Notes under the pieces: model-generated
Told to the model about the DNA's origin: nothing
Databases searched by the model: none
The model's input: only the letters and a program-made list of their open reading frames with translations
Assembly: GCA_007694005.1 (NCBI GenBank)
Contig: RECN01000095.1
Location: 1 to 64,000 of the forward strand
Length of the DNA: 64,000 nt
Reading direction: 5' to 3'
Source of the DNA: Spirochaetaceae bacterium
GTDB lineage: Bacteria > Spirochaetota > Spirochaetia > DSM-27196 > SKKC01
Shown: piece by piece, positions 10,832 to 24,394 of the stretch
Position numbering within the stretch: the stretch's first letter is position 1
Layout of the letters: every line of letters begins with the position of its first letter
Translations under genes and position numbers: made by a program

Positions 10832-13800
10832 TTAACGCTTTGGCATCTCGAGTATCAGTTCGACCTCACCGAGGCTCAGTCGGGTTGCGCGCGCGATTTC
10901 GTCCGGTTGCCACCCCTGGTGGGCGAGTTTTGCCACCGTATCGCGAACACTCGCCGGGGGAGCACCGCCTTCCTTGCCTCCGGCCTTGCTGTCTCGTTTC
11001 ATGATATCTCCGAGCAGCTTGACCTGATCCTTTGCTTCTCTTCCGATCTCTTCGAGTCTGGTTTCGGTTCGTGCAAGCCATTCGCGTGCTTTCTGAAGCT
11101 CCTGCATACGCCCTTCAACTTCGGTGAGCATGCCGGTAAGCTCGCGCATCTGCTCCACGGCCCCGTCGGCTGCGGCCTTGTTCTGCGACAGCTCCCTGAT
11201 CGTGGAGGAAATCTCAGCGAGTTTCTTCGGAAGACCGTCGACGTCTTCCCTCATACCTACGATACGGCGCTCAAGGTCCTCGAGCCGGTTAAAGCTGTTA
11301 TCTACCCCGTCAGCCGTCGCCTTGATTACCTGCTGCTTCTTTTCGAGACGCTGGAATCCGGCATCGACCTTCTCTCGCAGGTCCTCGACACTGCGCAACC
11401 GAACCTGGAGGTCCTGAAGCAGGTCGCTTGAACCGGTCACCTGAGTCAGCTTGTTCTCCACCTGGTCGGACAGATTCAGAAGGCGTGCATAATCCTCTTC
11501 TATCGAATCGATGCGCCGCTTTTCCTGCATGAAGGAAGCCAGCCGATTCTGTGCATCTTCCACGATGTTTCTGACGGCCGAGACTTCCGCGTCGAGACGC
11601 TCGACAGTCTCGCGTCGTTCATAGATAGAATCGAGATCCGACTGAAGCCGTCCGAGATTCTGCGCAAGCTCTTCTTTCAGTTCATCGGCACGATCGAACA
11701 GCCGTGTCTGTTCGACGAACTGCTTCTGGGCCTCCGAAATCTCATCGAGCTGCGACTGTAGCACCCTGGCTTCACTCTCCACACGCCCGAGAAGGCTCGT
11801 TCGCTGGTCTTCGAACTCTTCTCCGGTTTCTTTCGTGATTGTCCGAAGATCGCGGAGCTGCTGCTCAGCAAGGTCCTCGAGTTTCCGCGAATACCTGTCT
11901 ACATCCGCACGGAAAACCCCCGCCTGTTCCTCAAAGCGCTCGATGGTAGCCTGTGAACGGGAATCCATTCGTTCTCCGACCGTCTCAAGGCGCTGATCGA
12001 GTTCTTCTGCGCGACTTCCAAGCTCTTCGTAGCGCGACGCGAGGGCGCCGTCGAGGGCCGTGATGGTCTCGTTCGCTGCAGATCGTGTCCGTCCGAGTCG
12101 CTCGGTAACTTCACGCTCGGTGTTGCCCAGAAGTTCCGTAAGTTGCGAGGCCATTGCCTTGACCTTCTGGTCACTTTCAACGATGCGACTGCTGATCTCT
12201 TCCAGTCGGGTTTCCGTTTCGCGACCAGCCGCTCCGATGGCTTTTTCGAAGGCTTCGGTCTGCTCCTGCAGCCGACCGCGAAGCGTCTCGAATTTTTCTC
12301 CCATCTGTTCGGAGAACCGCGCACCCTGTTTCTCGAGGTTCTCTTCAAACTGTTTTGAATACTCGTTGCGGAACGATTCGAGTTCCTGCTTCATGCTGTC
12401 CGTGCGAACCGACAGATCCCGCACGCTGCCCTGCAGGGTATCCTGCTGTTCCTTGAGAACGGCATTCGTTTTGTTCCGATGATTCTCAAGCGAACGCTCG
12501 AGATCCTTCCGGTATTCCAGCTCCAGGTCGTTTCGCGACTGGGCTGCGTCTTCGCTCATGCGGCTGAGCTCTTCGTCGATTGATGCTTTCCATGACTCAA
12601 GGCGCGAGTTCATGTCCGCCGATCGGACCCGAAGATCTTTAAAGAAATCGTCCTCAAATACCTTCAACTTCTCGCTGACATTATCGTACGCGGCAGACTT
12701 GAGTTGTGAGACGGTCTGGTCGAGTTCCGATAGCTCACCATGGATACGCTCCATTTCTGCGCGCGCGGTCTCGAGGTCCTGCTGTCGATTGCTGTGTAAC
12801 TCCTGTCCGAGCGCATTCAGCGAATCGTTCATACGGTCGCCGGTCAGTCGGATCGTCTCGCGTAACGCCGCTTCGAGATTGTCGATATCGCTCCCGAGCG
12901 CTTCAACCCGCTCCAATCGGCCCTGAAGGGTGTCGGTAATCTGCGAAAGCTCCTCGTCGAAGCGATCAAACATGGACTGCTCGACTTCGGTAGCCTTTTT
13001 GGCGAAGGCGCGCTTCCACTGCGTCTCGAGCGCGGAAATCCGGGCTTTCTGCTCTTCGTCACTGCGAGACACACGGTCTCCGATGTCGCTCAAAGATGCC
13101 GACAGTTCGGATTCAACACGCTCAAAACGGGCCTGTTCCTGCGACAGATTCTCGAGTCGGGAAGCCGTATCTGCCTTGAGTTTTTCGATTGAGTCGGTGA
13201 GCTGGGCCTTCCACTGCCCGACCGACTCAGTCGTCGAGCGAAACAGTTCGCGTAGCCGGCGGTTGGTCTCCGCTTCGGTTTCCTCGATGCTCGTACCCAT
13301 ACCCGCAAGACGTTCGTTGACCGTTTCGATCCGGCCGGAAAGTTCTTCTTCCATTACGCTGACGTGGCCGTCGAGCTCTTTCCCTATTTCAGTACTGCGG
13401 TCGCCGAGTTCCTGCTCAAGTGCCGCTCGCATTTCAAGTGTCTGTCCCTGAAGGTACTCTTTAAGCGATGAGGCCGCGTCACGGGTCTGCTGTTCGATAA
13501 AGGATTTGAGCTTCGCGAGCGCTGCGGTCTCGAGATTCCGACCGGATTCTTCAAGGCCCGAAAGTCGCTGTTCCGCCTGCTGAACAATGGACTGAGCCTG
13601 TTCGTCCAGGCCTTCGAAGCGGTGTTCAACCTGCTCGGAAACGGTCTGCATGCGGGCTTCAGCGGCAATCGACTGCTCGGTCAACGCGGCGACCTTCGCT
13701 TCGCTATCCTTCATGATCTCGCGTTGCGTCTCCGCGAGTCGCCTGCTGTTTTCTTCTTCAAAGCGTGTTTCTGCAGCAGCGAGTCGATTCTCAAGCTCGG

Positions 13801-14230
13801 TAATCGATCTGGCCGACGCCTTTATGCGTTTTCCGACACCGTCAACGTACTCCGATTCATCCTGCACGCGCTTGATGTTTTCGTGTGCTGCGTTCGTCAG
13901 TGCGTCAAGCTCGTGCAGAGCCGACTCATACTTTTGTATGCGTTCAGCGATCACTTCGACCTTGTCCGCCCGACTAGACAGATCCTGCTCTGCCTGACCA
14001 ATGCGTTTGAGTATCTCCCGTGATGCTTTCTGATTAACGTCGACCTCGATGGCGACGTCACGCAGTGCAGTAACACGCTCTGCAACAAGATGATCTATGT
14101 CACCCTGAACTTTATCTGCAAAACGTTTGACTTTCTCCAGGGACCGGTTGTTGCGGTCTAGCTGACGGTATACCGCCAGTACCACCAACACGATCCCGAC
14201 GACTATAACGTCCCCGGCGGTGATTGGCAT
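10832..14230 (-). CDS. SpiroCoCo-family giant coiled-coil membrane protein
   Basis: 1132 residues. One N-terminal membrane helix (about 5-22, DVIVVGIVLVVLAVY) is followed by about 1000 residues of nearly unbroken heptad-patterned coiled coil rich in Glu, Gln, Arg and Ala. The last 35 residues form a small helix-turn-helix-like end (LAHQGWQPDEIARATRLSLG, then EVELIL) resembling the tail of DUF2802/DUF6115-type proteins. The layout matches what I recall as the spirochaete-specific SpiroCoCo family; its role is unknown but a cytoskeletal or periplasm-spanning scaffold is plausible. The ATG has GGGAGAGGG upstream. A promoter lies at 14267-14296. Confidence 0.8.
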   Translation of the reverse strand: MPITAGDVIVVGIVLVVLAVYRQLDRNNRSLEKVKRFADKVQGDIDHLVAERVTALRDVAIEVDVNQKASREILKRIGQAEQDLSSRADKVEVIAERIQKYESALHELDALTNAAHENIKRVQDESEYVDGVGKRIKASARSITELENRLAAAETRFEEENSRRLAETQREIMKDSEAKVAALTEQSIAAEARMQTVSEQVEHRFEGLDEQAQSIVQQAEQRLSGLEESGRNLETAALAKLKSFIEQQTRDAASSLKEYLQGQTLEMRAALEQELGDRSTEIGKELDGHVSVMEEELSGRIETVNERLAGMGTSIEETEAETNRRLRELFRSTTESVGQWKAQLTDSIEKLKADTASRLENLSQEQARFERVESELSASLSDIGDRVSRSDEEQKARISALETQWKRAFAKKATEVEQSMFDRFDEELSQITDTLQGRLERVEALGSDIDNLEAALRETIRLTGDRMNDSLNALGQELHSNRQQDLETARAEMERIHGELSELDQTVSQLKSAAYDNVSEKLKVFEDDFFKDLRVRSADMNSRLESWKASIDEELSRMSEDAAQSRNDLELEYRKDLERSLENHRNKTNAVLKEQQDTLQGSVRDLSVRTDSMKQELESFRNEYSKQFEENLEKQGARFSEQMGEKFETLRGRLQEQTEAFEKAIGAAGRETETRLEEISSRIVESDQKVKAMASQLTELLGNTEREVTERLGRTRSAANETITALDGALASRYEELGSRAEELDQRLETVGERMDSRSQATIERFEEQAGVFRADVDRYSRKLEDLAEQQLRDLRTITKETGEEFEDQRTSLLGRVESEARVLQSQLDEISEAQKQFVEQTRLFDRADELKEELAQNLGRLQSDLDSIYERRETVERLDAEVSAVRNIVEDAQNRLASFMQEKRRIDSIEEDYARLLNLSDQVENKLTQVTGSSDLLQDLQVRLRSVEDLREKVDAGFQRLEKKQQVIKATADGVDNSFNRLEDLERRIVGMREDVDGLPKKLAEISSTIRELSQNKAAADGAVEQMRELTGMLTEVEGRMQELQKAREWLARTETRLEEIGREAKDQVKLLGDIMKRDSKAGGKEGGAPPASVRDTVAKLAHQGWQPDEIARATRLSLGEVELILEMPKR

Positions 14231-15154: not shown

Positions 15155-16108
15155 CTATTCCTCGTCCTGGTGGATCAGCTGCCGCTCGAGGAACTCGAGA
15201 GCCTGCTGACGGCCAAGTCGCTGCAGTTCATTCTGACGCCGGGCTTCTTCGCGCTCGGTCAAAATCTGCCATACGTCTTCGTGTTCGATGTCCCGGTCGC
15301 GTGGAAGTACTGCAAGGTCGTGTACAACGACTACGTCCTTGAGGTACGTCACGAAATCTCCGCCGATCTGGGCTCCGTCGCGATAGATGCGGAAGCCTGC
15401 AATCCGTCGCAGCGGTTCGTTCCGCGGGTACATCGGCGTTACACGAAGTTCCCGGTCGCGGACGTCGGACAGGTAGTTCGGATTGTTCCAGACGAGGGTA
15501 TTCCACCCGTCGAACTCCAGATTACCCATCATGATTTCCTGAACGCGGTTATCCTGATCCTGAAGCAGGACGCTGATCCGGTGAGGAAAGTTCAGTCCGT
15601 AGGCGTTCAGCCGAATCTGGCGGATAGGTCCGACATTTCCGATTACACCGAAGCCGGGCTCGCCCTGGTCGTCCGGATAAAACCGTCGCTCGGGGTCGAA
15701 AGCCGGAATCTCGAACGGTGGTGAAACCTCCGCATAACTGTTGAACGCGCTTGCAGGGAAACGCACCCGAATGCCCATAACAGCCTGTCCGGCAAACTGA
15801 TCGGCGTTATCGCTGACCTGTGCCTGACGTGCAAAACTGCTTACGACGTTCTGGGTCTGCCGTGAGCTCGATGCGAGCGTCACGTTCCAGTTCTCGATAA
15901 ACAATGACGAAGAAAGCCCGTCCCTGTCAGCCTGTGCGAGCGTAGGAATCGGCACTTCGCTAAAGTCGATGCGAGTACGCTCGTGTTGTCCTTCGAATTC
16001 TCCTGAGTCGGCGATGAGCTGGCTGAAGTCGATAAGTATCGACTCAACTCCCCATCCAAGACTACCCAGAAGAAGCATTCCGGCGATGAGAATGAAAATC
16101 CGTTTCAT
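15155..16108 (-). CDS. flaA: Flagellar filament outer-layer (sheath) protein FlaA
   Basis: 318 residues, close to known FlaA proteins. The ATG at 16108 is preceded by AAGGAG with a 7-nt gap and starts a signal peptide (MKRIFILIAGMLLLGSLGWG); the upstream in-frame extension to 16159 is not used. FlaA coats the FlaB core of spirochaete periplasmic flagella. Typical elements are the N-terminal IDFSQL, a middle region on lateral positions (IRQIRLNAYGLNFPHRISV) and WNNPNYL with a YLKDVVVVHD segment before a charged C-terminal helix. It has its own strong promoter and terminator but lies directly downstream of an amidase and GerMN gene pair, an arrangement I recall from Treponema pallidum. Confidence 0.93.
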   Translation of the reverse strand: MKRIFILIAGMLLLGSLGWGVESILIDFSQLIADSGEFEGQHERTRIDFSEVPIPTLAQADRDGLSSSLFIENWNVTLASSSRQTQNVVSSFARQAQVSDNADQFAGQAVMGIRVRFPASAFNSYAEVSPPFEIPAFDPERRFYPDDQGEPGFGVIGNVGPIRQIRLNAYGLNFPHRISVLLQDQDNRVQEIMMGNLEFDGWNTLVWNNPNYLSDVRDRELRVTPMYPRNEPLRRIAGFRIYRDGAQIGGDFVTYLKDVVVVHDLAVLPRDRDIEHEDVWQILTEREEARRQNELQRLGRQQALEFLERQLIHQDEE

Positions 16109-16148
16109 TCGATGCTCCTTAATCCCTCCGTGGTATGGTACGCAGAAT

Positions 16149-16174
16149 ACGCTCCTCAAAGTATATGGGAGCGT
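16149..16174. promoter_or_regulatory. Inverted repeat flanking the flaA -10 box
   Basis: Perfect 7-bp arms ACGCTCC (16149-16155) and GGAGCGT (16168-16174) bracket the -10 box symmetrically. It could be a regulator site or a leader RNA hairpin, although one arm lies upstream of the predicted start. Confidence 0.4.
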
Positions 16175-16223: not shown

Positions 16224-16703
16224 TCACTCACGGTAGGCTTCTTCATTGAGAATTTCGCCTCCAATGGTCACCGTCACTTCGTCCATGCCTCTGAAATTAT
16301 ACCGGATATTGTATCGTATTGTCTCGAGCATCTCCGGGAGCGAAAGGACAATACGTGCTCCGACCGCGTCAAGAAGAGCTGGTGAAAGGTCAATGAAGAC
16401 GCGTCGATCGCGCACCATTACCGACTGCACTCTCGTGCCCCGGGGAACGACGCGACTCCGGTCTATACGCCCCGGTCCGGCTACGAGTTCGGCGACAAAA
16501 GCCGAAACCTCTCCTTCGACGGTGTCCCGACGGGGAACAAGACGCGTCTCACCGGCCAGTTCACTGTCGACAGAGCCGGGAAACAGCAGCACACGCTCCA
16601 CACGCGACGGTGGAGCGACCGCATAGACGGTTACGCTGATTATAAGAGAGAGAATAACTAGCCCGCCGATTATGACGCGGCTGTCTGCGCGAAATGAACT
16701 CAT
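16224..16703 (-). CDS. GerMN-domain membrane-anchored protein
   Basis: 159 residues. An N-terminal membrane helix (about 10-28) is followed by a GerMN-like domain: VSAFVAELVAGP, then VVPRGTRVQSVMVRDRRVFI and DLSPALLDAV. GerMN domains occur in sporulation, germination and peptidoglycan-linked proteins and are thought to bind cell-wall or lipoprotein partners. The ATG overlaps the amidase stop by 4 nt (ATGA), so the two are coupled and likely act together in the periplasm. flaA follows, but with its own promoter. Confidence 0.82.
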   Translation of the reverse strand: MSSFRADSRVIIGGLVILSLIISVTVYAVAPPSRVERVLLFPGSVDSELAGETRLVPRRDTVEGEVSAFVAELVAGPGRIDRSRVVPRGTRVQSVMVRDRRVFIDLSPALLDAVGARIVLSLPEMLETIRYNIRYNFRGMDEVTVTIGGEILNEEAYRE

Positions 16704-17737
16704 GTACCACTCGTCAGTCCGGTTTCGAAAACCTCTATGAAGTTGCGGATGCCAGTATAAAGACCGATGGACAGGTTGCGCAAGTGTGCAGGGTCTGCGA
16801 GCAGGCGGGCTTCGTGTTCATTCGTCACGAAACCGAGTTCGAACAGAACGCTCGGCATGAGCGCGTTCCTCACCACCGCCCAGTTTTCCTGTTTCAGTCC
16901 ACGATTCGGAGACTGCTCACCGATAACGCCTTCCATTGCTGCGAGAAGCTCGTTCCCGAGCATTGCACTGTGTACCGACACCTCTTCCTCACGCATGGAG
17001 TTGAGAATTGCGTGTATGCTTCTTCGATCGGCGTCGAGGTCTTCGGGGTCGATCAGGACGCGTCGCTGTTCAGGAGGTAGAAACCAGGCTTCGAACCCGC
17101 GTGCACGCGAGTTCAGCGATGCGTTCGCGTGTATGGAGATATAGATGATGTACTGATTTTCGCCAAGAGGAATGTCGTTCGCCATTCGCGTCCTGTCGTC
17201 AAGGGTCAGATAGACGTCAGTCTCACGGCTCAGATAGACCGGCACGTCCGGGAGGTTCTGTTCGAGTAGATCCCGTACCTGAAGCGAAACGTCGAGCACG
17301 ATGTCCTTCTCCTGCAGCACGAGCGCTTCACCGTCGACGGTGTGACGGCCGATCGTACCAGGGTCGCGTCCCCCGTGACCTGGATCGATAAAGATCGCCC
17401 CGATCACCGGCTGGTCCGAGTCACGCCGCTGAGGAAGCAACACGGCCTCGATCATTTCCGCGTCGTCGGCATGGAAAAACACCCGGCCGATATCCCTGAC
17501 CGGAGGAGATATCGTCTGCTCCTCGCGATAATCGCGCACCACTATGTCGCTCCCGACTGCGAACGCGAGCGTCGTATTTCCGCGATGTAACGATCCGATT
17601 CCAAGGAAGGGGTCGTACTCCAGACGCGCACCGGTCCGCTCCGCGATGTCCTGTACCGACACGCGGGCAATATCGCCTGCCGAAAGCGCGAACACCGCAA
17701 TCATCAGCAGAAGCGAAGTCAATGAGACGCGTAACAT
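16700..17737 (-). CDS. N-acetylmuramoyl-L-alanine amidase (Amidase_3)
   Basis: 345 residues from the ATG at 17737, which opens a signal peptide (MLRVSLTSLLLMIAVFALSA); the longer frame to 17830 lies inside the upstream gene. The catalytic domain spans about 125-345. Zinc and catalytic residues are visible in IFIDPGHGG (His), LQEKDIVLDV (Glu), YISIHANAS (His) and FELGFVTNEHEA (Glu). It cleaves the amide bond between MurNAc and the stem peptide in periplasmic peptidoglycan. The start overlaps the ATP-grasp gene by 19 nt, tying it to the glycan-type cluster. With flaA next, a role in making room for periplasmic flagella is plausible. Confidence 0.92.
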   Translation of the reverse strand: MLRVSLTSLLLMIAVFALSAGDIARVSVQDIAERTGARLEYDPFLGIGSLHRGNTTLAFAVGSDIVVRDYREEQTISPPVRDIGRVFFHADDAEMIEAVLLPQRRDSDQPVIGAIFIDPGHGGRDPGTIGRHTVDGEALVLQEKDIVLDVSLQVRDLLEQNLPDVPVYLSRETDVYLTLDDRTRMANDIPLGENQYIIYISIHANASLNSRARGFEAWFLPPEQRRVLIDPEDLDADRRSIHAILNSMREEEVSVHSAMLGNELLAAMEGVIGEQSPNRGLKQENWAVVRNALMPSVLFELGFVTNEHEARLLADPAHLRNLSIGLYTGIRNFIEVFETGLTSGT

Positions 17738-19440
17738 TGCCGTAGAAATCCTGTGAGTGCGTGGCACGATTCTTCCTCGCTTAGAGTATCGATCACATAG
17801 CGCAATCCCTGTAGGCCTCCCCGTTCGCACGCAAGCGTAAGAATGCAGACGGTGAGATCCATCGGCAAAGCGATCGTCCCTGTTCCTGCGTCCTCGTGAA
17901 CGACAGAAATCGCATCCCCGCGCGTATACGCGTGCAGATCCTGCTCGTCGTCACGCAGCGTTTCGTGGTACCGGGAGTTGCGCAATCGGGAACGCATGCC
18001 GTCAAGCGCATCGCCTGTCGAGGTCTGGGCCTGTGCATGCTGATCGAGCACCGACCGGACAAGAGTCCGGGACAGCTCACGCACAAAGCCGTGTTCGGCT
18101 GCTCTACTGACCGGAGGGTGCAATGGCCCGTGGAACCGGGGGTCGGCGAAGAACGCAGTCCGGTCGGGCAGATCGGGTCCGAGGAGAAAGGTCCATGTCT
18201 TCGGGTGTGCGCGCTGCAGAGGAATGACGATCTGTCTGAGAACGGACCCGATGCGTTCGTGCAGAACGTCTCTGTTATCTGCCTCAATTATAAGGTTCCC
18301 GCACTTCTCGACGTTATTTGTCGGCACAGACACCTCATCGCCCGACGACCGGCTGATAAAACACTCACGAACGCCCGGGAGTCTGAGGATATCTCCGGTT
18401 CCAATGTCCCCGTTTAACAGGCCGGGTATGCTCATGATTGCGCGCTCGGCGACAACCCGACGTAGCGTCGGTGCTCCGGTACCATGGGTCGCTCCGGAAG
18501 CGATGCGTATCGCTCCGCGCGTCGGCTGTATCCCGCTTGCACAGGGATAGGTCCATCCCGACATGTACCCCCCGCTGAGCCGTGCCGCGATTTCACCGAT
18601 GACCACCGAAGGGCCGCTTCCGGGAAGCCAGTCCGGACGCATATCGTCCGGGACCAGGAATATATCGCCTTTCGCCGCACCGCAGTCTATGCCTATGGCG
18701 TCCACCGCCCTGAAAAACTCATCAGTGAGCAGAGCCTGCAACTCAGCGGGCAACGCCGACGGAATGGTATGGCCGATTTCCACGAAATACGGCGGAATCG
18801 CGATGTGCCGATCCGCGATGCCGCACGCGATTTTTTCGGTCGGGGTCACGAGACAGTCGATGGAGTACTCGCGCCCGGGAATAAAACTCTCAACGATCAC
18901 CCGTCCGTCGCGCGAGTACGCTTCGGCGTGCGCGAGCGCCGCCGCTATCTCCTCGGACGCGGTGATCCTGCGCACACCACGGGCGCCCATATTGGCAACA
19001 GGTTTTACAACTGCAGGAAGCGGAACGTCTGTGGCACCGTCTATCCGCTCGCCATGCCGGTATACGGCAAAAGGAGGAACCGAGACGCCTCGATCGCGCA
19101 GTCTCCGGCGCATCAGAGCCTTATCGGTCGCGTGCAATGCGGCATCGACGGGGATTCCGGGAAGCCCGCAGGCTTCGGCTATGCGGGCCACCGTCAGTGA
19201 GAAGTCCGTACCCGCGGTAAACACTGCCTGAACCTGATTCCGTCGCGCACAGTCGATCAACGACCGCTCGTCCTTCAGATCGATATGCTCGAAGACGTGC
19301 GCATGCAGCCGACCGGGACAGGCCGGATTACCGTCGGCCACGACGACGGTCCACCCTTCTTCGGTGGCAATGCGAATTGCCGGAACCTGCATGACTCCAC
19401 CGCCGCAGATCAGTATACGCCGCGCTGGTGTACTGCTCAC
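17719..19440 (-). CDS. ATP-grasp domain enzyme
   Basis: 573 residues. An N-terminal Rossmann-like domain (ILICGGGVMQVPAIRIATEE) resembles the pre-ATP-grasp fold of CarB/PurK/PylC enzymes. The ATP-grasp core follows: VVKPVANMGARGV (144-156), VESFIPGREYSIDCLV (183-198) and GEIAARLSGG (282-291). The C-terminal 250 residues are unassigned. Family members join a carboxylate to an amine, thiol or hydroxyl with ATP. The start is GTG, overlapping the previous stop (GTGA) with GGAGG upstream. In this cluster it could ligate an amino acid or similar group to an unusual sugar; the substrate is not known. Confidence 0.85.
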   Translation of the reverse strand: MSSTPARRILICGGGVMQVPAIRIATEEGWTVVVADGNPACPGRLHAHVFEHIDLKDERSLIDCARRNQVQAVFTAGTDFSLTVARIAEACGLPGIPVDAALHATDKALMRRRLRDRGVSVPPFAVYRHGERIDGATDVPLPAVVKPVANMGARGVRRITASEEIAAALAHAEAYSRDGRVIVESFIPGREYSIDCLVTPTEKIACGIADRHIAIPPYFVEIGHTIPSALPAELQALLTDEFFRAVDAIGIDCGAAKGDIFLVPDDMRPDWLPGSGPSVVIGEIAARLSGGYMSGWTYPCASGIQPTRGAIRIASGATHGTGAPTLRRVVAERAIMSIPGLLNGDIGTGDILRLPGVRECFISRSSGDEVSVPTNNVEKCGNLIIEADNRDVLHERIGSVLRQIVIPLQRAHPKTWTFLLGPDLPDRTAFFADPRFHGPLHPPVSRAAEHGFVRELSRTLVRSVLDQHAQAQTSTGDALDGMRSRLRNSRYHETLRDDEQDLHAYTRGDAISVVHEDAGTGTIALPMDLTVCILTLACERGGLQGLRYVIDTLSEEESCHALTGFLRQCYASH

Positions 19441-21224
19441 CGGCCTTCCCTCCGGGCATAGGCTTCAAAGGTGTCTCCGAGACCTCTGAGCCGGCTGTAG
19501 AGGTGGACAATGCGGTAACCGAGTCTGTTCTTCGACATGCGCGGTGCAATGCGTTCAGGATGATGCCCGGTGACTCGTATCCGGACTGAACCGAAGCCCT
19601 GCTCCGAGAGATATCGTCGCGCAGACTGCGGGGTCCATACCGTCCGGTGGTCCTCAGGGCTCGCCGCGAGAAAGGATCTCAGACTCCGTCTCGCTGATAT
19701 TCCTCTGCCGTTCGGTGTCGAAAACGCGAAGACCCCACCCGGAACGAGCAGGTTCCGTAGCGCGGTAAACAGTCTGTCGAGGTCATCGATGTGTTCGATC
19801 ACGTACCACATAGTGACGACATCCACTCCGTCGTGAAGCTGCTCGGCACGATCACGTGAAAGATCGGTCGCATCCGCGACAAAGGCCGGGATGCCGAGCT
19901 CATCCCTGACATAGGTGACCGCCTGGGAGAATACGTCGGTGCCCACGCAGTCATAGCCCTGCGACGCCGCTGCGGAAAGGAAGGGGCCGTAGGCGCACCC
20001 GATGTCGAGCAGACGCCCCTTTTTTCCCCCACGCTTTGATCCGCGGAGAAACGTCGCGATATGCTTCAGCCGTTGCATACCCATGGTCCGGATGTGCTCG
20101 AAATCGTCGAGGTAGCTGCGCCCGTACTGCTTCGCATAGGCTTCATCGAAATATTCTTCGTTGTACTCTATGGTCAGTGGATGAAAGCGTTCCAGATACA
20201 GAAGCCCGCTGTGCCGTTCGGGACGAAAACTCCGTGCGGGAAGACGCATGACGACCGGAGTGCGTGGCGGCCCGCCGGACGGCTCACCGACACAGCCGGA
20301 CGGATCGAGTGAGCCGATCAGCTCAGCGAGGGTCGTTTCCTGCAAGGGACGCAACGTTTCCTGATGTTTCCATATCTCGTGCATGTGATCGAAGGTAGCC
20401 TCGATCGTTTCGGGACCGGGCGATTCGAGCAGGGGTAGCGATGCCTTCCGCGTGAGTTCCGCGTGATACGCTGTCGGTGCGCAGGTGATCACGGTACACC
20501 CTGCCGCTAAGGCCTCAAAGGCCGTAAGACCGAATGTACAGAATACAATGTCGTACTCACCGAGCAGCGCCGCAAGACGGTTTGTCGTATGCACACGTCC
20601 CGTTACCGGGAACGCTTCAAGGCGCTGCGGAAGGCCGCCTGCGGGCTCGAAGCAGGACGCCGGGAGCACGATATCGACCGAACCCGGCCCGAGCTGGTTG
20701 CTCAGAGCTACGGCCTGCAGCAGAGGCTCAGTCAGGTCTGCGATGTCATCGCCCCCCATACAGATGAGCGCGCGGGAACCGGAGGAAGGAGGCGTCGTGC
20801 GTACACGGGGGGGCAGATCGAGCGCATCGGGTACGTACAGATTCGGCTGATGCGTTTCGAGGTTAACGAGCGTATCAATCAGAAACGATGCGTACGCACG
20901 TCCCTCTCCGCCGGTATCGATGCCGACTACCGGCGCGACCGAAAGCAGACTCAACATCTGCGCAACGGTAAGCGTCTGGGCATCGAGCACGATAATAGCC
21001 GGTGTCACCGTTTCGATCGTCTGCCAGCTCACGAGTGCAACCGCTTCCGACCCGTCAGACAGGGCCAGGCAATCGTCCTGATCGCGCAACAGGCCGTCCC
21101 ACGGAAAATCCAGGCACATTGCAGCATACCCGGACAGGCCCATGCACGTGCGGAAACTCCGACGGATGTGACCGGTACCGTGAGCACAACGGGTATCGGG
21201 GACGATGAGATATGTCGGGTTCAT
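19437..21224 (-). CDS. SpsG/PseG-like domain fused to a SAM methyltransferase
   Basis: 595 residues. The N-terminal part (about 1-310) looks like SpsG/PseG, the GT-B-related UDP-sugar hydrolase of pseudaminic acid synthesis: GTGHIRRSF near 16-24, ICMGGDD near 154-160 and FCTFGLTAFEALAAG near 228-242. The C-terminal part (about 370-560) is a class I methyltransferase: LLDIGCAYG (405-413), an acidic residue in CVGTDVFS, then WYVIEHIDDLD and LVPGGVFAFSTPN. The ATG at 21224 overlaps the stop of the SpsF-like gene (ATGA). The fusion suggests that a nucleotide-activated sugar is handled and then methylated in one complex. The longer frame to 21299 was not chosen. Confidence 0.82.
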   Translation of the reverse strand: MNPTYLIVPDTRCAHGTGHIRRSFRTCMGLSGYAAMCLDFPWDGLLRDQDDCLALSDGSEAVALVSWQTIETVTPAIIVLDAQTLTVAQMLSLLSVAPVVGIDTGGEGRAYASFLIDTLVNLETHQPNLYVPDALDLPPRVRTTPPSSGSRALICMGGDDIADLTEPLLQAVALSNQLGPGSVDIVLPASCFEPAGGLPQRLEAFPVTGRVHTTNRLAALLGEYDIVFCTFGLTAFEALAAGCTVITCAPTAYHAELTRKASLPLLESPGPETIEATFDHMHEIWKHQETLRPLQETTLAELIGSLDPSGCVGEPSGGPPRTPVVMRLPARSFRPERHSGLLYLERFHPLTIEYNEEYFDEAYAKQYGRSYLDDFEHIRTMGMQRLKHIATFLRGSKRGGKKGRLLDIGCAYGPFLSAAASQGYDCVGTDVFSQAVTYVRDELGIPAFVADATDLSRDRAEQLHDGVDVVTMWYVIEHIDDLDRLFTALRNLLVPGGVFAFSTPNGRGISARRSLRSFLAASPEDHRTVWTPQSARRYLSEQGFGSVRIRVTGHHPERIAPRMSKNRLGYRIVHLYSRLRGLGDTFEAYARREGR

Positions 21225-21907
21225 GCGCTCTTTCGGATCAGATCCGGTTTGCGAAGCCGTTCGACGAGTTCGTGTATCTCTACCGGCCGACCACGCCACA
21301 GCTCACTGAAGATTCTCGAAAGAAAATGATAATCGTCCTCGGTGTCCAGCGTGACCCGCGTAGAACACGCGAGCTCAGCGTCGACGCTCGGTCGATGGAT
21401 GCGGAACAGCTCGGGATGCCGGTACAGATAGGGAGCCACGTGCTCCCGGTCGTACCGGTCTGTCGCATCGTGGTGGGCCTGAATGAGTGCTGCACCGTTT
21501 ATGCATTCCACGCCGGTTCCAAGCGGCATCCCCAGAAACCCGCTGTAATCGGCGCCTTCAGCCTCGTGGATCGTCAGAAGCCTGTTTGCAAGCCACGCGC
21601 TCACGAGCGGATTATCCCCGGTGGCGCGGATGACGGTGTCGATCGCGTAGCGGTGTACGGCCCCGGTGTATCGGTCAAGGACGTCGTTCTCGCTTCCTAT
21701 CCACAGCGTAAAGCCCGCGCCTTCGGCATACGGGGCCAGCCTCGATGCACTCTGTTCGTCGGTAAGGAGCAGATACTCGGACGCTTCGATACCGCTGAGA
21801 GCCATCATGCAGTGCTCGACGACCGGAACTCCGGACAGTTTGAGCAGAGCTTTATCGGGAAGACGTTGCGACGCGAGTCGGGCCTGCAGCATTACTGCTC
21901 GTTTCAT
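21221..21907 (-). CDS. SpsF/PseF-like cytidylyltransferase
   Basis: 228 residues beginning MKRAVMLQARLASQRLPDKA, the NTP-transfer loop of the SpsF/KdsB/NeuA-type cytidylyltransferases (AR.xS.RLP.K). ATGDNPLVSAWL carries the metal-binding Asp, and CSTRVTLDTEDDYHF matches the usual RLTVDxxxD motif. Such enzymes activate acid sugars as CMP derivatives. SpsF and SpsG are neighbours in other bacteria too, as PseF and PseG are in flagellin glycosylation. The ATG overlaps the upstream stop by 4 nt. Confidence 0.87.
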   Translation of the reverse strand: MKRAVMLQARLASQRLPDKALLKLSGVPVVEHCMMALSGIEASEYLLLTDEQSASRLAPYAEGAGFTLWIGSENDVLDRYTGAVHRYAIDTVIRATGDNPLVSAWLANRLLTIHEAEGADYSGFLGMPLGTGVECINGAALIQAHHDATDRYDREHVAPYLYRHPELFRIHRPSVDAELACSTRVTLDTEDDYHFLSRIFSELWRGRPVEIHELVERLRKPDLIRKSA

Positions 21908-22860
21908 TCATCATACTCCCACAAATCCGTGACACTACGGGCATTCATTCGGAACCGGAAACGGTTCTCATATACCCATCGACGGATTTCCCGAAAGAGT
22001 TGAAGGGATCCCGCAATACCGGCTCCGGACCGAAGCATAAAGCCAGGAAATCGTCGCCACGGCAGCATGCCACAGTCATTCTGAAACCGTAGGGCAAGCG
22101 CTTTGAGATAGAGCCTGCGATACCCGAGATCGGGCGTGGTGTCGTCGGGTTCGGTTTCGGATAACTGCTGTGCACGGACGGAACTGTTGGTCCTGATCTG
22201 TTCGCCCCACATGAATGCCCTGAAGCCGAAGTCCAGTTTCTGCCAGTATGGGCGTTCTATCTGAATATCGAAGCCGTACAGCTGCAGAAACCGCTCGCGA
22301 TGATAGAACCCGCAGTAATCAAAGGGAAAAAGCGTCGCTTCCTCGTCGACTATGGGCGTTTTCGGTATCACCCGAAGCAGTCTCCGGTAGAAGGCCGGGG
22401 CCATAATGCCCGGGACGGTCTCTCCGCGTTCGTTGCGGATCACCGGAACCATGCACAGTAGCTCTTCTTCGCGCATGCGATCGACGCTCCGCGACGCGAG
22501 CGTTCCGTCCACGCTCATGTCGTTCCAGATGACGAACACGTAGCGGGTCTTCAGCTCTCCCATCGCCAGATTAATTCTGTGCCCGATATTCATGCGCCGG
22601 TGCAGCAGCATGAAACGGACCTTCGGGTACCTGGCCGTCAGCTGTTCGACATCGTACTGCGGCGTCTCGCCTTCAACCGATATGATGTCCGAAGCACCGA
22701 GACGCTCAAGCCGGGCGAAGAGATCCCCGCGTCGGTACCTTCCGCCCCGGTTAAGTACAATGGCGCTGAACAGCGGAGTGTGGCGGGTTTCCCGTTCGCC
22801 TCCGCTTCCACCGACGACGGTGTAGTCAGGATACTCAGAAGTTGAAGGTGTAGTACTCAT
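21904..22860 (-). CDS. Glycosyltransferase-like (GT-A) protein
   Basis: 319 residues from the ATG at 22860; a GTG at 22872 is also possible. Either start overlaps the Spiro-SPASM stop region. The N-terminal half resembles a family 2-type GT-A fold: FSAIVLNRGGRYRRGDLFAR, then HRRMNIGHRINLAMGEL, then YVFVIWNDMSVDGTL, where the Asp residues could be the DxD-like metal site. A second conserved-looking block is DYCGFYHRERFLQLYGFD. I cannot name the family. Its coupling to SpsF and SpsG homologues argues for sugar transfer rather than housekeeping. Confidence 0.7.
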   Translation of the reverse strand: MSTTPSTSEYPDYTVVGGSGGERETRHTPLFSAIVLNRGGRYRRGDLFARLERLGASDIISVEGETPQYDVEQLTARYPKVRFMLLHRRMNIGHRINLAMGELKTRYVFVIWNDMSVDGTLASRSVDRMREEELLCMVPVIRNERGETVPGIMAPAFYRRLLRVIPKTPIVDEEATLFPFDYCGFYHRERFLQLYGFDIQIERPYWQKLDFGFRAFMWGEQIRTNSSVRAQQLSETEPDDTTPDLGYRRLYLKALALRFQNDCGMLPWRRFPGFMLRSGAGIAGSLQLFREIRRWVYENRFRFRMNARSVTDLWEYDE

Positions 22861-24394
22861 CACAGTTCTCACAGATTTCGGTATATCGGCCTGCTACCTG
22901 ATCCCGATGAACCGCCTCACCGGCTTCCCAGATATCTTCGAACGACTGTTCGTAGAGGTTGCCCAGGGCGTGGTCACTGCGAATGTCTTCACGACACCGG
23001 GGTACGGTTCCGTCAATGCGAACATACAGATCGCGCTTGTTGTGCCAGCAGGGAAAACGTTGTACCGGCGAGAGATCGGTGACCTTTCGCGGAGGAAGCT
23101 GCCCGCAGAAATCATCATATTTCTGAATGATGATGTGATCGGTCTTCTCTTTCCAGTACCGCCAGAAGGTCTCCAGATGCGCTTCGGTTTCTTTCATGCG
23201 CACGGCCTGAACGTAGCTGTACGCGGGCACCTCGGCGATCAGGGTCTCGGCAAAGGCCTTCGCTTCCGGAAATCCATCGCCGCGGAGCTCCCGATATGTG
23301 TCTTCCTCAATGGCATCGAGAGCGACGATCCAGCGCACTCTGTTGCCGTAGCGTTTCGCGAGCTCGACGATTTCGGCGACAGGACGGCCGATACCGCTTG
23401 TCTCAACGAGCAGCGAAAGACCCTGCGTGTCGCAGACCGCTTCGACGAGAGCGGGAAAATCAGGATGCAGAAGCGGCTCACCCCACGTGCAGATCCCGAC
23501 TGTTGCCTCCGGCGAGTACGAAGACAGCCCGCTTACCAGCTCCCGGAAACGCCCGACAGGCATGTTCGCAGGTCCGTCAGCGCGGGTGTCGCCCGCCGAA
23601 ACGTCCGGCAGATACGTGATCTTCTGGGGATGCGCGGTGGTAACCTCCACGCTCATGTACATCGGAAGGGTCCTCAGGCGTCCGTAGTTTGACTCTACTG
23701 CACGCACATACCTGTCTTTCGGTACAACCGAGCCCGTAGCCTCGTCACAGAGTATGGCCTGAAACCGACTGCACAGAACGAAGTTTGCGCGGGTATCGCA
23801 GCGGAAGGTGATACGCAGCATGCGGAAATCCACCGGCGAGAGCAGCGTTTCGACATCGAATGAGTTTATGTCGCGCTGCAGAATAGTAAAAAGCCAGTCG
23901 GCGACGGCTGTATCGTCGCTTTCCTCCACCAGTTTCGCTAACAGACGGGGGAGACTCGGGCTCAAAACGACCGGTGTCGAACCGGCAGGATACCCATCCG
24001 CGAAGCTGTAGTGAGCCCGGTACTTCACGTGTTCGGACAGGATCAAAGACGCCTCGTCGGCCATCATCCACGGCTCGTCGGCCCGCTTGTATAACACCGC
24101 TTCAGCCTCAGCCGAAAGCTCGGTAAGCACAGACAGAACCCCGGCTGCCGATGTGTCACGTACTTCAAACACCTTCACCGAAGCCGGAAGAGAAACGCGT
24201 CCATCACCGAGTTTCAGGCTCATCGTGGTGGAATCGGCGGTGGCTTCTGACTGCTGCGGGCGGACGAGCAGAACGAGTTCATCGGACAGCGAAGCGGCTG
24301 AACCAACTGCGCGCTCCACCGCGCTGGAACCGTCTCCGAGCGACAAGCCGGCGTATGATCGAATGTGCAGGGCATCAATAATCGCGAGAACCAT
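22835..24394 (-). CDS. Spiro-SPASM protein: NTP-transferase-like domain + cysteine-less radical-SAM fold + SPASM domain
   Basis: 519 residues. Residues 1-190 resemble a degenerate nucleotidyltransferase (LYKRADEPWMMADEASL recalls the central metal-site region). Residues 245-430 follow a radical-SAM barrel: MSVEVTTAHPQKITYLPD is where CxxxCxxC should be, but the three positions are H255, I259 and L262. CTWGEPLLHPDF replaces the GGEP motif. The C-terminal SPASM/twitch region keeps cysteines at 430, 449, 467, 508 and 511. This matches my memory of the spirochaete-only spiro-SPASM family. It cannot bind the SAM cleavage cluster in the usual way. It heads the cluster; a TATAGT box 6 nt before the ATG suggests a leaderless start. 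Confidence 0.85.
   Translation of the reverse strand: MVLAIIDALHIRSYAGLSLGDGSSAVERAVGSAASLSDELVLLVRPQQSEATADSTTMSLKLGDGRVSLPASVKVFEVRDTSAAGVLSVLTELSAEAEAVLYKRADEPWMMADEASLILSEHVKYRAHYSFADGYPAGSTPVVLSPSLPRLLAKLVEESDDTAVADWLFTILQRDINSFDVETLLSPVDFRMLRITFRCDTRANFVLCSRFQAILCDEATGSVVPKDRYVRAVESNYGRLRTLPMYMSVEVTTAHPQKITYLPDVSAGDTRADGPANMPVGRFRELVSGLSSYSPEATVGICTWGEPLLHPDFPALVEAVCDTQGLSLLVETSGIGRPVAEIVELAKRYGNRVRWIVALDAIEEDTYRELRGDGFPEAKAFAETLIAEVPAYSYVQAVRMKETEAHLETFWRYWKEKTDHIIIQKYDDFCGQLPPRKVTDLSPVQRFPCWHNKRDLYVRIDGTVPRCREDIRSDHALGNLYEQSFEDIWEAGEAVHRDQVAGRYTEICENCDEYYTFNF

Follow-up and report, generated by a model that had tools for sequence, protein, structure and literature searches.

Radical S-adenosylmethionine (SAM) enzymes form a superfamily defined by a CxxxCxxC motif, and those carrying a SPASM domain of the TIGR04085 type have seven further cysteines for two auxiliary clusters. 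One family of such proteins, spiro-SPASM (NCBIfam TIGR04321), is already known by name. Among kinases and proteases, pseudoenzymes are a familiar phenomenon; our literature searches, judged from their listings, gave no report of a radical-SAM pseudoenzyme family, and searches by the family name or by TIGR04321 found no paper on spiro-SPASM. Repeated cluster loss with a conserved remainder likewise turned up in no literature search, and the comment attached to NCBI's model may mention missing motifs. Here we consider P0001, a spiro-SPASM protein of 519 amino acids that has lost its radical-SAM cysteines. It is encoded on the minus strand at 22835-24394 of a 64,000-nucleotide stretch of Spirochaetaceae DNA (contig RECN01000095.1, positions 1 to 64,000; hereafter the window). 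We propose, with a probability of about 0.5, that it is a pseudo-radical-SAM protein of a kind that has arisen repeatedly, and that it has been kept to hold a substrate, or to serve as a scaffold, in a sugar pathway linked to the spirochaete filament.

The assignment of the gene rests on its open reading frame, the plus strand being interrupted by stops in this interval, and on an end-to-end match to TIGR04321 (residues 6-519; 487.2 bits against a cut-off of 250; 5.4e-146), which is the family model to which a preliminary description of this DNA had referred. The former cluster loop, TTAHPQKITYLPD (residues 252-264; 23603..23641, minus strand), aligns without gaps on the CxxxCxxCP of relatives, for example CPQACSYCPFP in L079 and CPQSCAYCPYP in L018, and the three cluster positions can therefore be identified as H255 (codon 23630..23632), I259 (23618..23620) and L262 (23609..23611), all on the minus strand and occupied in relatives by the first, second and third cluster cysteine. 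The preliminary description had named exactly these residues from their spacing, and since the assignment now rests on aligned homologues, chance is ruled out. The CxxxCxxC motif is thus missing from P0001, and the Pfam Radical_SAM profile scores 27.7 bits against a gathering threshold of 29.5 (30.2 bits in a genome-wide search), with a match that begins at profile position 49-50, so that the cluster loop lies outside it. The genome of the window has eight Radical_SAM matches, of which P0001 alone starts late (position 49), whereas the other seven begin at positions 1-4; the organism has therefore not given up enzymes of this kind.

The preliminary description had asked whether the loss of cysteines is universal in the family, and had taken homologues with CxxxCxxC at these positions as evidence against its reading. 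The family itself is widespread: a search of 392 spirochaete genomes across the phylum gave matches above the TIGR04321 cut-off in 289, and the same holds for 41 of the 48 genomes of one class in that draw (that of genome G055) and for 42 of the 46 genomes of the window's order. The homologue set used here is a non-random one, partly fetched from 324 genomes over the cut-off (289 plus 35, counted by hand) and 15 contig loci; once 15 duplicates and the short or broken rows L043, L044 and L054 were dropped, 205 near full-length, non-redundant sequences remained, the window protein being L046. CxxxCxxC is kept in 78 of these and lost in 127, and at the aligned columns 108 of the 127 lack all three cysteines, 18 retain one and a single sequence retains two. 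Universal loss is thereby rejected, and homologues with the motif do exist, the sister genus included, while the loss in P0001 itself stands. The nearest intact relatives, L079-L081, come from three genomes of that sister genus, which belongs to the family of the window's genus, and all have CPQACSYCPFP or CPQACTYCPFP; the window's genus is Cys-less in all three of its genomes (L046, L031 and L032, the last two equalling L085 and L087, respectively, over the final 200 residues), and this clade is sister to L079-L081 with a support of 100.

Trees were computed from alignments without the motif columns. With FastTree (205 rows) the motif changes state 18 times, and branches with support of at least 95 require 7 or more of these changes; with IQ-TREE (138 representatives) it changes 17 times, with at least 9 required at the same level; when the FastTree tree is rooted at its midpoint and only losses are allowed, 24 are needed, falling to 20 or 9 once branches below 80 or below 95 are collapsed. 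A single ancestral loss was rejected, as placing all Cys-less representatives in one clade costs 1148 log-likelihood units (approximately unbiased test, p 8.9e-39; 138 representatives). Closer to the window, the tree of its order needs only 3 changes, 2 of them forced, and a single clade of the order's 13 lost rows that leaves out the intact L079-L081 did not survive testing either (p 0.0017). Equal-cost parsimony could take L079-L081 as a regain of the motif, but simultaneous regain of three cysteines is unlikely, and L084, another member of this order, retains the first cluster cysteine; recombination leaves some room for a regain. Losses are the natural reading of these changes, because the motif defines the superfamily and the replacement residues differ between clades. 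The comparison shows that loss of the cysteines is specific to certain lineages and has happened repeatedly, and is not a property of the family. Aerobic life alone was considered as a cause and rejected. COX1, a cytochrome oxidase gene, is present in 76 of the 392 genomes and none was found in the window's genome, and of the loci of the G055 class that were classed, all 14 intact ones and all but one of the 22 lost ones lie in COX1-positive genomes (hand count); COX1 does not sort with the motif, so aerobic life alone leaves the loss unexplained.

Loss of the cluster ligands has been accompanied by change around the SAM site. In radical-SAM enzymes, SAM is held by positions beside the cluster loop, by the GGE motif and by the SLD serine. 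Conservation was compared over 489 columns, with 58 intact representatives on one side and 80 Cys-less ones on the other. The eight columns that lost most in the Cys-less group were C255, C262 and C259, which do so by the definition of the group, followed by 265, 264, 358, 304 and 303. Positions 264 and 265 lie beside the loop, 303 and 304 come before the GE of the GGE-like motif, and 358, sixth of the 489, is the serine before LD on the fourth strand in most intact relatives and an alanine in P0001 (A358; codon 23321..23323, minus strand). The mean shift was 0.04 in the front domain and 0.18 in both the rest of the barrel and the SPASM domain. The most shifted columns all fall in the cluster loop or in SAM motifs; the SAM site has thus been relaxed and the remainder of the protein has not. 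The gene as a whole is under purifying selection: the ratio of nonsynonymous to synonymous substitution rates (dN/dS, NG86) is 0.153 over 519 codons against L031, its nearest relative, and 0.106 against L032, other Cys-less pairs give 0.09-0.15 (one further pair has no value, its dS being saturated) and intact pairs 0.07-0.21. By these figures, Cys-less genes are under as much constraint as intact ones. With every ligand of the SAM cluster lost and the SAM site relaxed, canonical radical chemistry becomes very unlikely, and P0001 very probably no longer performs it; the preliminary statement that the protein must do something other than radical chemistry points in the right direction, the word "must" being too strong.

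The fold of the lost enzyme has been kept. An AlphaFold2 model of P0001 (mean predicted local distance difference test score, pLDDT, of 80; predicted TM-score, pTM, of 0.75; low confidence at 265-270, 427-452 and 504-519) has a radical-SAM-like barrel at residues 241-425 (23120..23674, minus strand), also located by Pfam, which matches SuiB (Z 21.3, with the 265-270 loop at low confidence). A search of the P0001 sequence against solved structures gave no match, and it is by predicted structure that the barrel and C-terminal part resemble SuiB, SkfB, BlsE, MoaA, BtrN and viperin. Modelling of L033, a relative with the motif intact, leads to the same structural picture (pLDDT 83.6). Residues 424-447 of the family form a conserved segment.

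In front of the barrel lies a degenerate cytidylyltransferase-like domain (residues 1-215; 23750..24394, minus strand), which refines the NTP-transferase-like domain of the preliminary description. In the model, residues 1-248 match a cytidylyltransferase from Leptospira (6oew) with a VIA Z of 18.6 and a root-mean-square deviation (rmsd) of 3.3 over 223 residues, and GlmU and IspD are likewise structural matches. Comparison of profiles with hhalign relates the front to the neighbouring cytidylyltransferases of the operon (98.2% probability, E 4.5e-14, 188 columns), a kinship visible only in this way, because BLASTP of P0001 against the neighbouring cytidylyltransferase gave a non-significant E of 0.12. 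The catalytic motif RxxSxR..xK, searched for in the first 80 residues, is found in none of the 205 spiro-SPASM proteins but in all 31 neighbouring cytidylyltransferases (that of the window and those of 30 loci). The front is a dead copy both in proteins that keep the cluster cysteines and in those that have lost them.

At the other end, the SPASM domain (22859..23050, minus strand; residues 449-512) matches Pfam PF13186 with 38.6 bits against a gathering threshold of 21.5 and has both CX(9-15)GX4C and CX2C, its four conserved cysteines being C449, C467, C508 and C511. The full SPASM model TIGR04085 stays below its cut-off (20.7 bits against 27), with four cysteines only. As the preliminary description held, these cysteines are retained in P0001, and it is natural to ask whether the SPASM cluster alone does the work, in an iron-sulfur protein of electron transfer or redox function that no longer needs SAM. 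Such a protein would explain why all four cysteines are kept in 201 of the 205 homologues (78 of 78 intact, 123 of 127 Cys-less) and why dN/dS is low in the SPASM part. Nevertheless, we consider it unlikely. Four cysteines would saturate the cluster and leave no open iron site. Furthermore, the four exceptions are all Cys-less: L103, whose count of two SPASM cysteines reflects the end of a truncated sequence, L203, which has lost one, and L161 and L163, in which D, Y, S and Y replace the four, so that all seven cluster cysteines are gone. L161 and L163 come from Treponema-like genomes (loci L226 and L227, genomes G331 and G355) that have the complete operon described below, FlaA included; dN/dS between them is 0.12 overall and 0.04 in the SPASM part, and the C-terminal tail DEYYTFNF is kept. 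This argues that the protein can be retained without either cluster, and neither would therefore be essential to the retained role. The stress that the preliminary description placed on a retained SPASM iron-sulfur part accordingly carries less weight than it first seems to.

The spiro-SPASM gene heads a minus-strand operon whose genes have ends that overlap or nearly do so, with xseA upstream running the opposite way. It is followed by a glycosyltransferase-like gene (21904..22872; GT-A-like by inspection, with a weak NTP_transf_3 match below cut-off), an SpsF-like cytidylyltransferase with its catalytic motif intact (21221..21907; PF02348, 98.9 bits), a PseG-like domain fused to a methyltransferase (19437..21299; PF13489, 83.7 bits; TIGR03590 PseG weak at 20.9 bits against a cut-off of 153.6), an ATP-grasp ligase (17719..19440; PF13535), an N-acetylmuramoyl-L-alanine amidase (16700..17830; PF01520, 139.9 bits), a GerMN-type (Germane) domain protein (16224..16703; PF10646, 30.8 bits) and the flagellar filament outer-layer protein FlaA (15155..16159; PF04620, 211 bits), all on the minus strand. 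FlaA closes a sugar-pathway operon that is conserved in many spirochaetes (22835-15155 in the window). Across 33 loci the glycosyltransferase-like gene is present in 27, the cytidylyltransferase in 30 and FlaA within the fetched stretch in 18, the loci without FlaA including ones cut by contig ends; the 18 comprise 12 intact, 4 Cys-less and 2 unclassable loci (L043 and L044), and 3 of 3 further Cys-less loci also carry FlaA. The operon is the same around intact and Cys-less genes. By hand count over the phylum draw, spiro-SPASM is over its cut-off in 287 of 346 FlaA-positive and 2 of 46 FlaA-negative genomes, and one additional FlaA-negative genome, G110, has spiro-SPASM fragments. Single-sequence searches of Leptospira-like and Brachyspira-like contexts (L123 and L117; names guessed) found no operon partner.

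Some further features of these loci may be recorded. In one group of Treponema-like genomes (L106, L110, L111, L112, L033, L040, L042, L043 and L044) a single gene encodes both the cytidylyltransferase and the PseG-like/methyltransferase parts, giving products of about 820-880 amino acids. In L043 (Treponema sp. UBA1240) the spiro-SPASM gene lies in three frames, through either an assembly error or true decay. Downstream of the window's operon, behind a HAD hydrolase, 10832-14230 encodes a 1132-amino-acid protein that is coiled-coil-like by eye.

The genomic setting also bears on the idea that P0001 pairs, as a non-catalytic subunit, with an intact radical-SAM protein encoded elsewhere, for which candidates would be the seven further Radical_SAM matches of the genome that begin at the cluster loop. 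This is quite unlikely, as no intact radical-SAM protein stands among the annotated operon genes and no second spiro-SPASM copy was found in the window's genome. It is improbable, too, that the activity resides in the N-terminal domain, as a nucleotidyltransferase whose residues are unusual and to which the radical-SAM part is an appendage: the fold of this domain and the conservation of D106, P108, P136 and G138 would suit an enzyme, but RxxSxR..xK is absent from all 205 members and present in every neighbour, and the barrel and SPASM domain are under as much constraint as the front. Non-canonical radical chemistry, with a cluster or SAM still bound through other ligands, could account for retention of the acidic residue of the GGE-like motif in Cys-less members; we regard it as highly improbable, given varied replacements at the three sites, no common substitute cysteine and relaxed SAM-site columns. 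Finally, a pseudogene heading for loss would explain the missing catalytic residues and is rejected on the dN/dS values given above, in a family that is over cut-off in nearly all genomes of the order (42 of 46).

We are thus led back to a pseudo-radical-SAM protein with a substrate-holding or scaffolding role. On this hypothesis the family would descend from a radical-SAM enzyme of the SPASM kind that had a dead cytidylyltransferase-like domain at its front and took part in a sugar pathway connected with the filament operon, acting on an activated sugar held by the dead front. A second role of this ancestor may have survived once the chemistry went: in the window's genus, and on many other occasions, the cluster cysteines disappeared and constraint on the SAM site eased, but the barrel, the SPASM core, the C-terminal tail and a front that resembles a nucleotide-sugar-binding domain have persisted. 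P0001 would then most likely hold or present an activated sugar, or hold the enzymes of the pathway together, with no radical step. A substrate-handling role beside sugar enzymes would fit an operon that is conserved and a front that is a degenerate nucleotidyltransferase. What the analysis shows is the missing motif, its loss on several occasions, the relaxed SAM site, purifying selection on the remainder and an unvarying operon; from these we infer that the protein binds sugar or acts as a scaffold, that the pathway is linked to glycosylation of the filament and that intact relatives carry out radical chemistry on the same sugar. A bolder version, which we offer tentatively and think doubtful as it stands, is that throughout the spirochaetes a radical-SAM enzyme of this operon has turned many times into a cofactor-free assembly factor, in which the dead front and dead barrel cradle a cytidine monophosphate (CMP)-sugar, receiving it from the SpsF-like enzyme and passing it on to the methyl- and glycosyltransferases; radical chemistry would be an optional decoration that appears and disappears along with the glycan, and one Treponema-like lineage would have dropped the SPASM metal as well.

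Several points weigh against the substrate-holding or scaffolding role. We know of no ligand, partner or phenotype for any spiro-SPASM member. The glutamate of the GGE-like motif is kept as E in 113 and as D in 14 of the 127 Cys-less sequences, and ETSG is retained in most of them, which leaves some room for binding of a small molecule at the old SAM site. The link to FlaA is positional, T. pallidum-like and T. denticola-like genomes having FlaA away from the gene. In addition, the small Borreliaceae-like genomes (group f8; a hand count gave 36) possess FlaA and lack spiro-SPASM, so that their filaments manage without this pathway and the protein is not needed for every spirochaete filament.

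The reading thus widens from a single odd protein to a family whose members have repeatedly given up the radical site. Since the family offers natural pairs of intact and cluster-less proteins, and even sister genera differ in the motif, it can be tested what makes a radical-SAM protein worth keeping after its chemistry is lost. The finding also bears on the filament biology of spirochaetes. In T. denticola the FlaB proteins carry a 450.2 Da glycan that is essential for filament assembly (PMC9481697). In T. pallidum the hypothetical protein TPASS_0285 is annotated as SPASM (PMC4403809), and it is probably one of the cluster-less members.

Among described pathways the operon may be compared with the sps legionaminic acid genes of B. 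subtilis, where synthesis of legionaminic acid requires spsG and its transfer requires spsF (PMC7439481). There, as here, an SpsF-like cytidylyltransferase adjoins a PseG-like gene. The two differ in that the PseG similarity here is weak (20.9 bits) and no SpsE-type synthase is found among the annotated operon genes, the scope of that comparison being the operon, with the rest of the genome not searched. The available portions of PMC9481697 and PMC7439481 do not mention the spiro-SPASM protein. With cytidylyltransferases (PF02348; Leptospira 6oew; SpsF) the front of P0001 shares its fold, and its profile is similar to that of the operon's own SpsF-like protein, but their catalytic N-terminal motif is absent from every spiro-SPASM member examined. 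P0001 is like other members of TIGR04321 in its full-length match and domain order, many of them having CxxxCxxC, whereas P0001 and 126 others of the 205 are without it. The SPASM/twitch radical-SAM enzymes (SuiB, SkfB 6efn, BlsE, BtrN, anSME and DesII) share with P0001 the barrel and the C-terminal extension: the model superimposes on SuiB 5v1s with an rmsd of 3.0 over 247 residues, on BlsE 7vob with Z 18.6 (3.9 over 255) and on BtrN 4m7t with Z 18.3 (3.2 over 226), the intact L033 giving Z 22.9, 20.7 and 20.5, respectively. Unlike these enzymes, P0001 has four SPASM cysteines in place of seven, has no cluster cysteines in its barrel and has an additional nucleotidyltransferase-like domain at its front.

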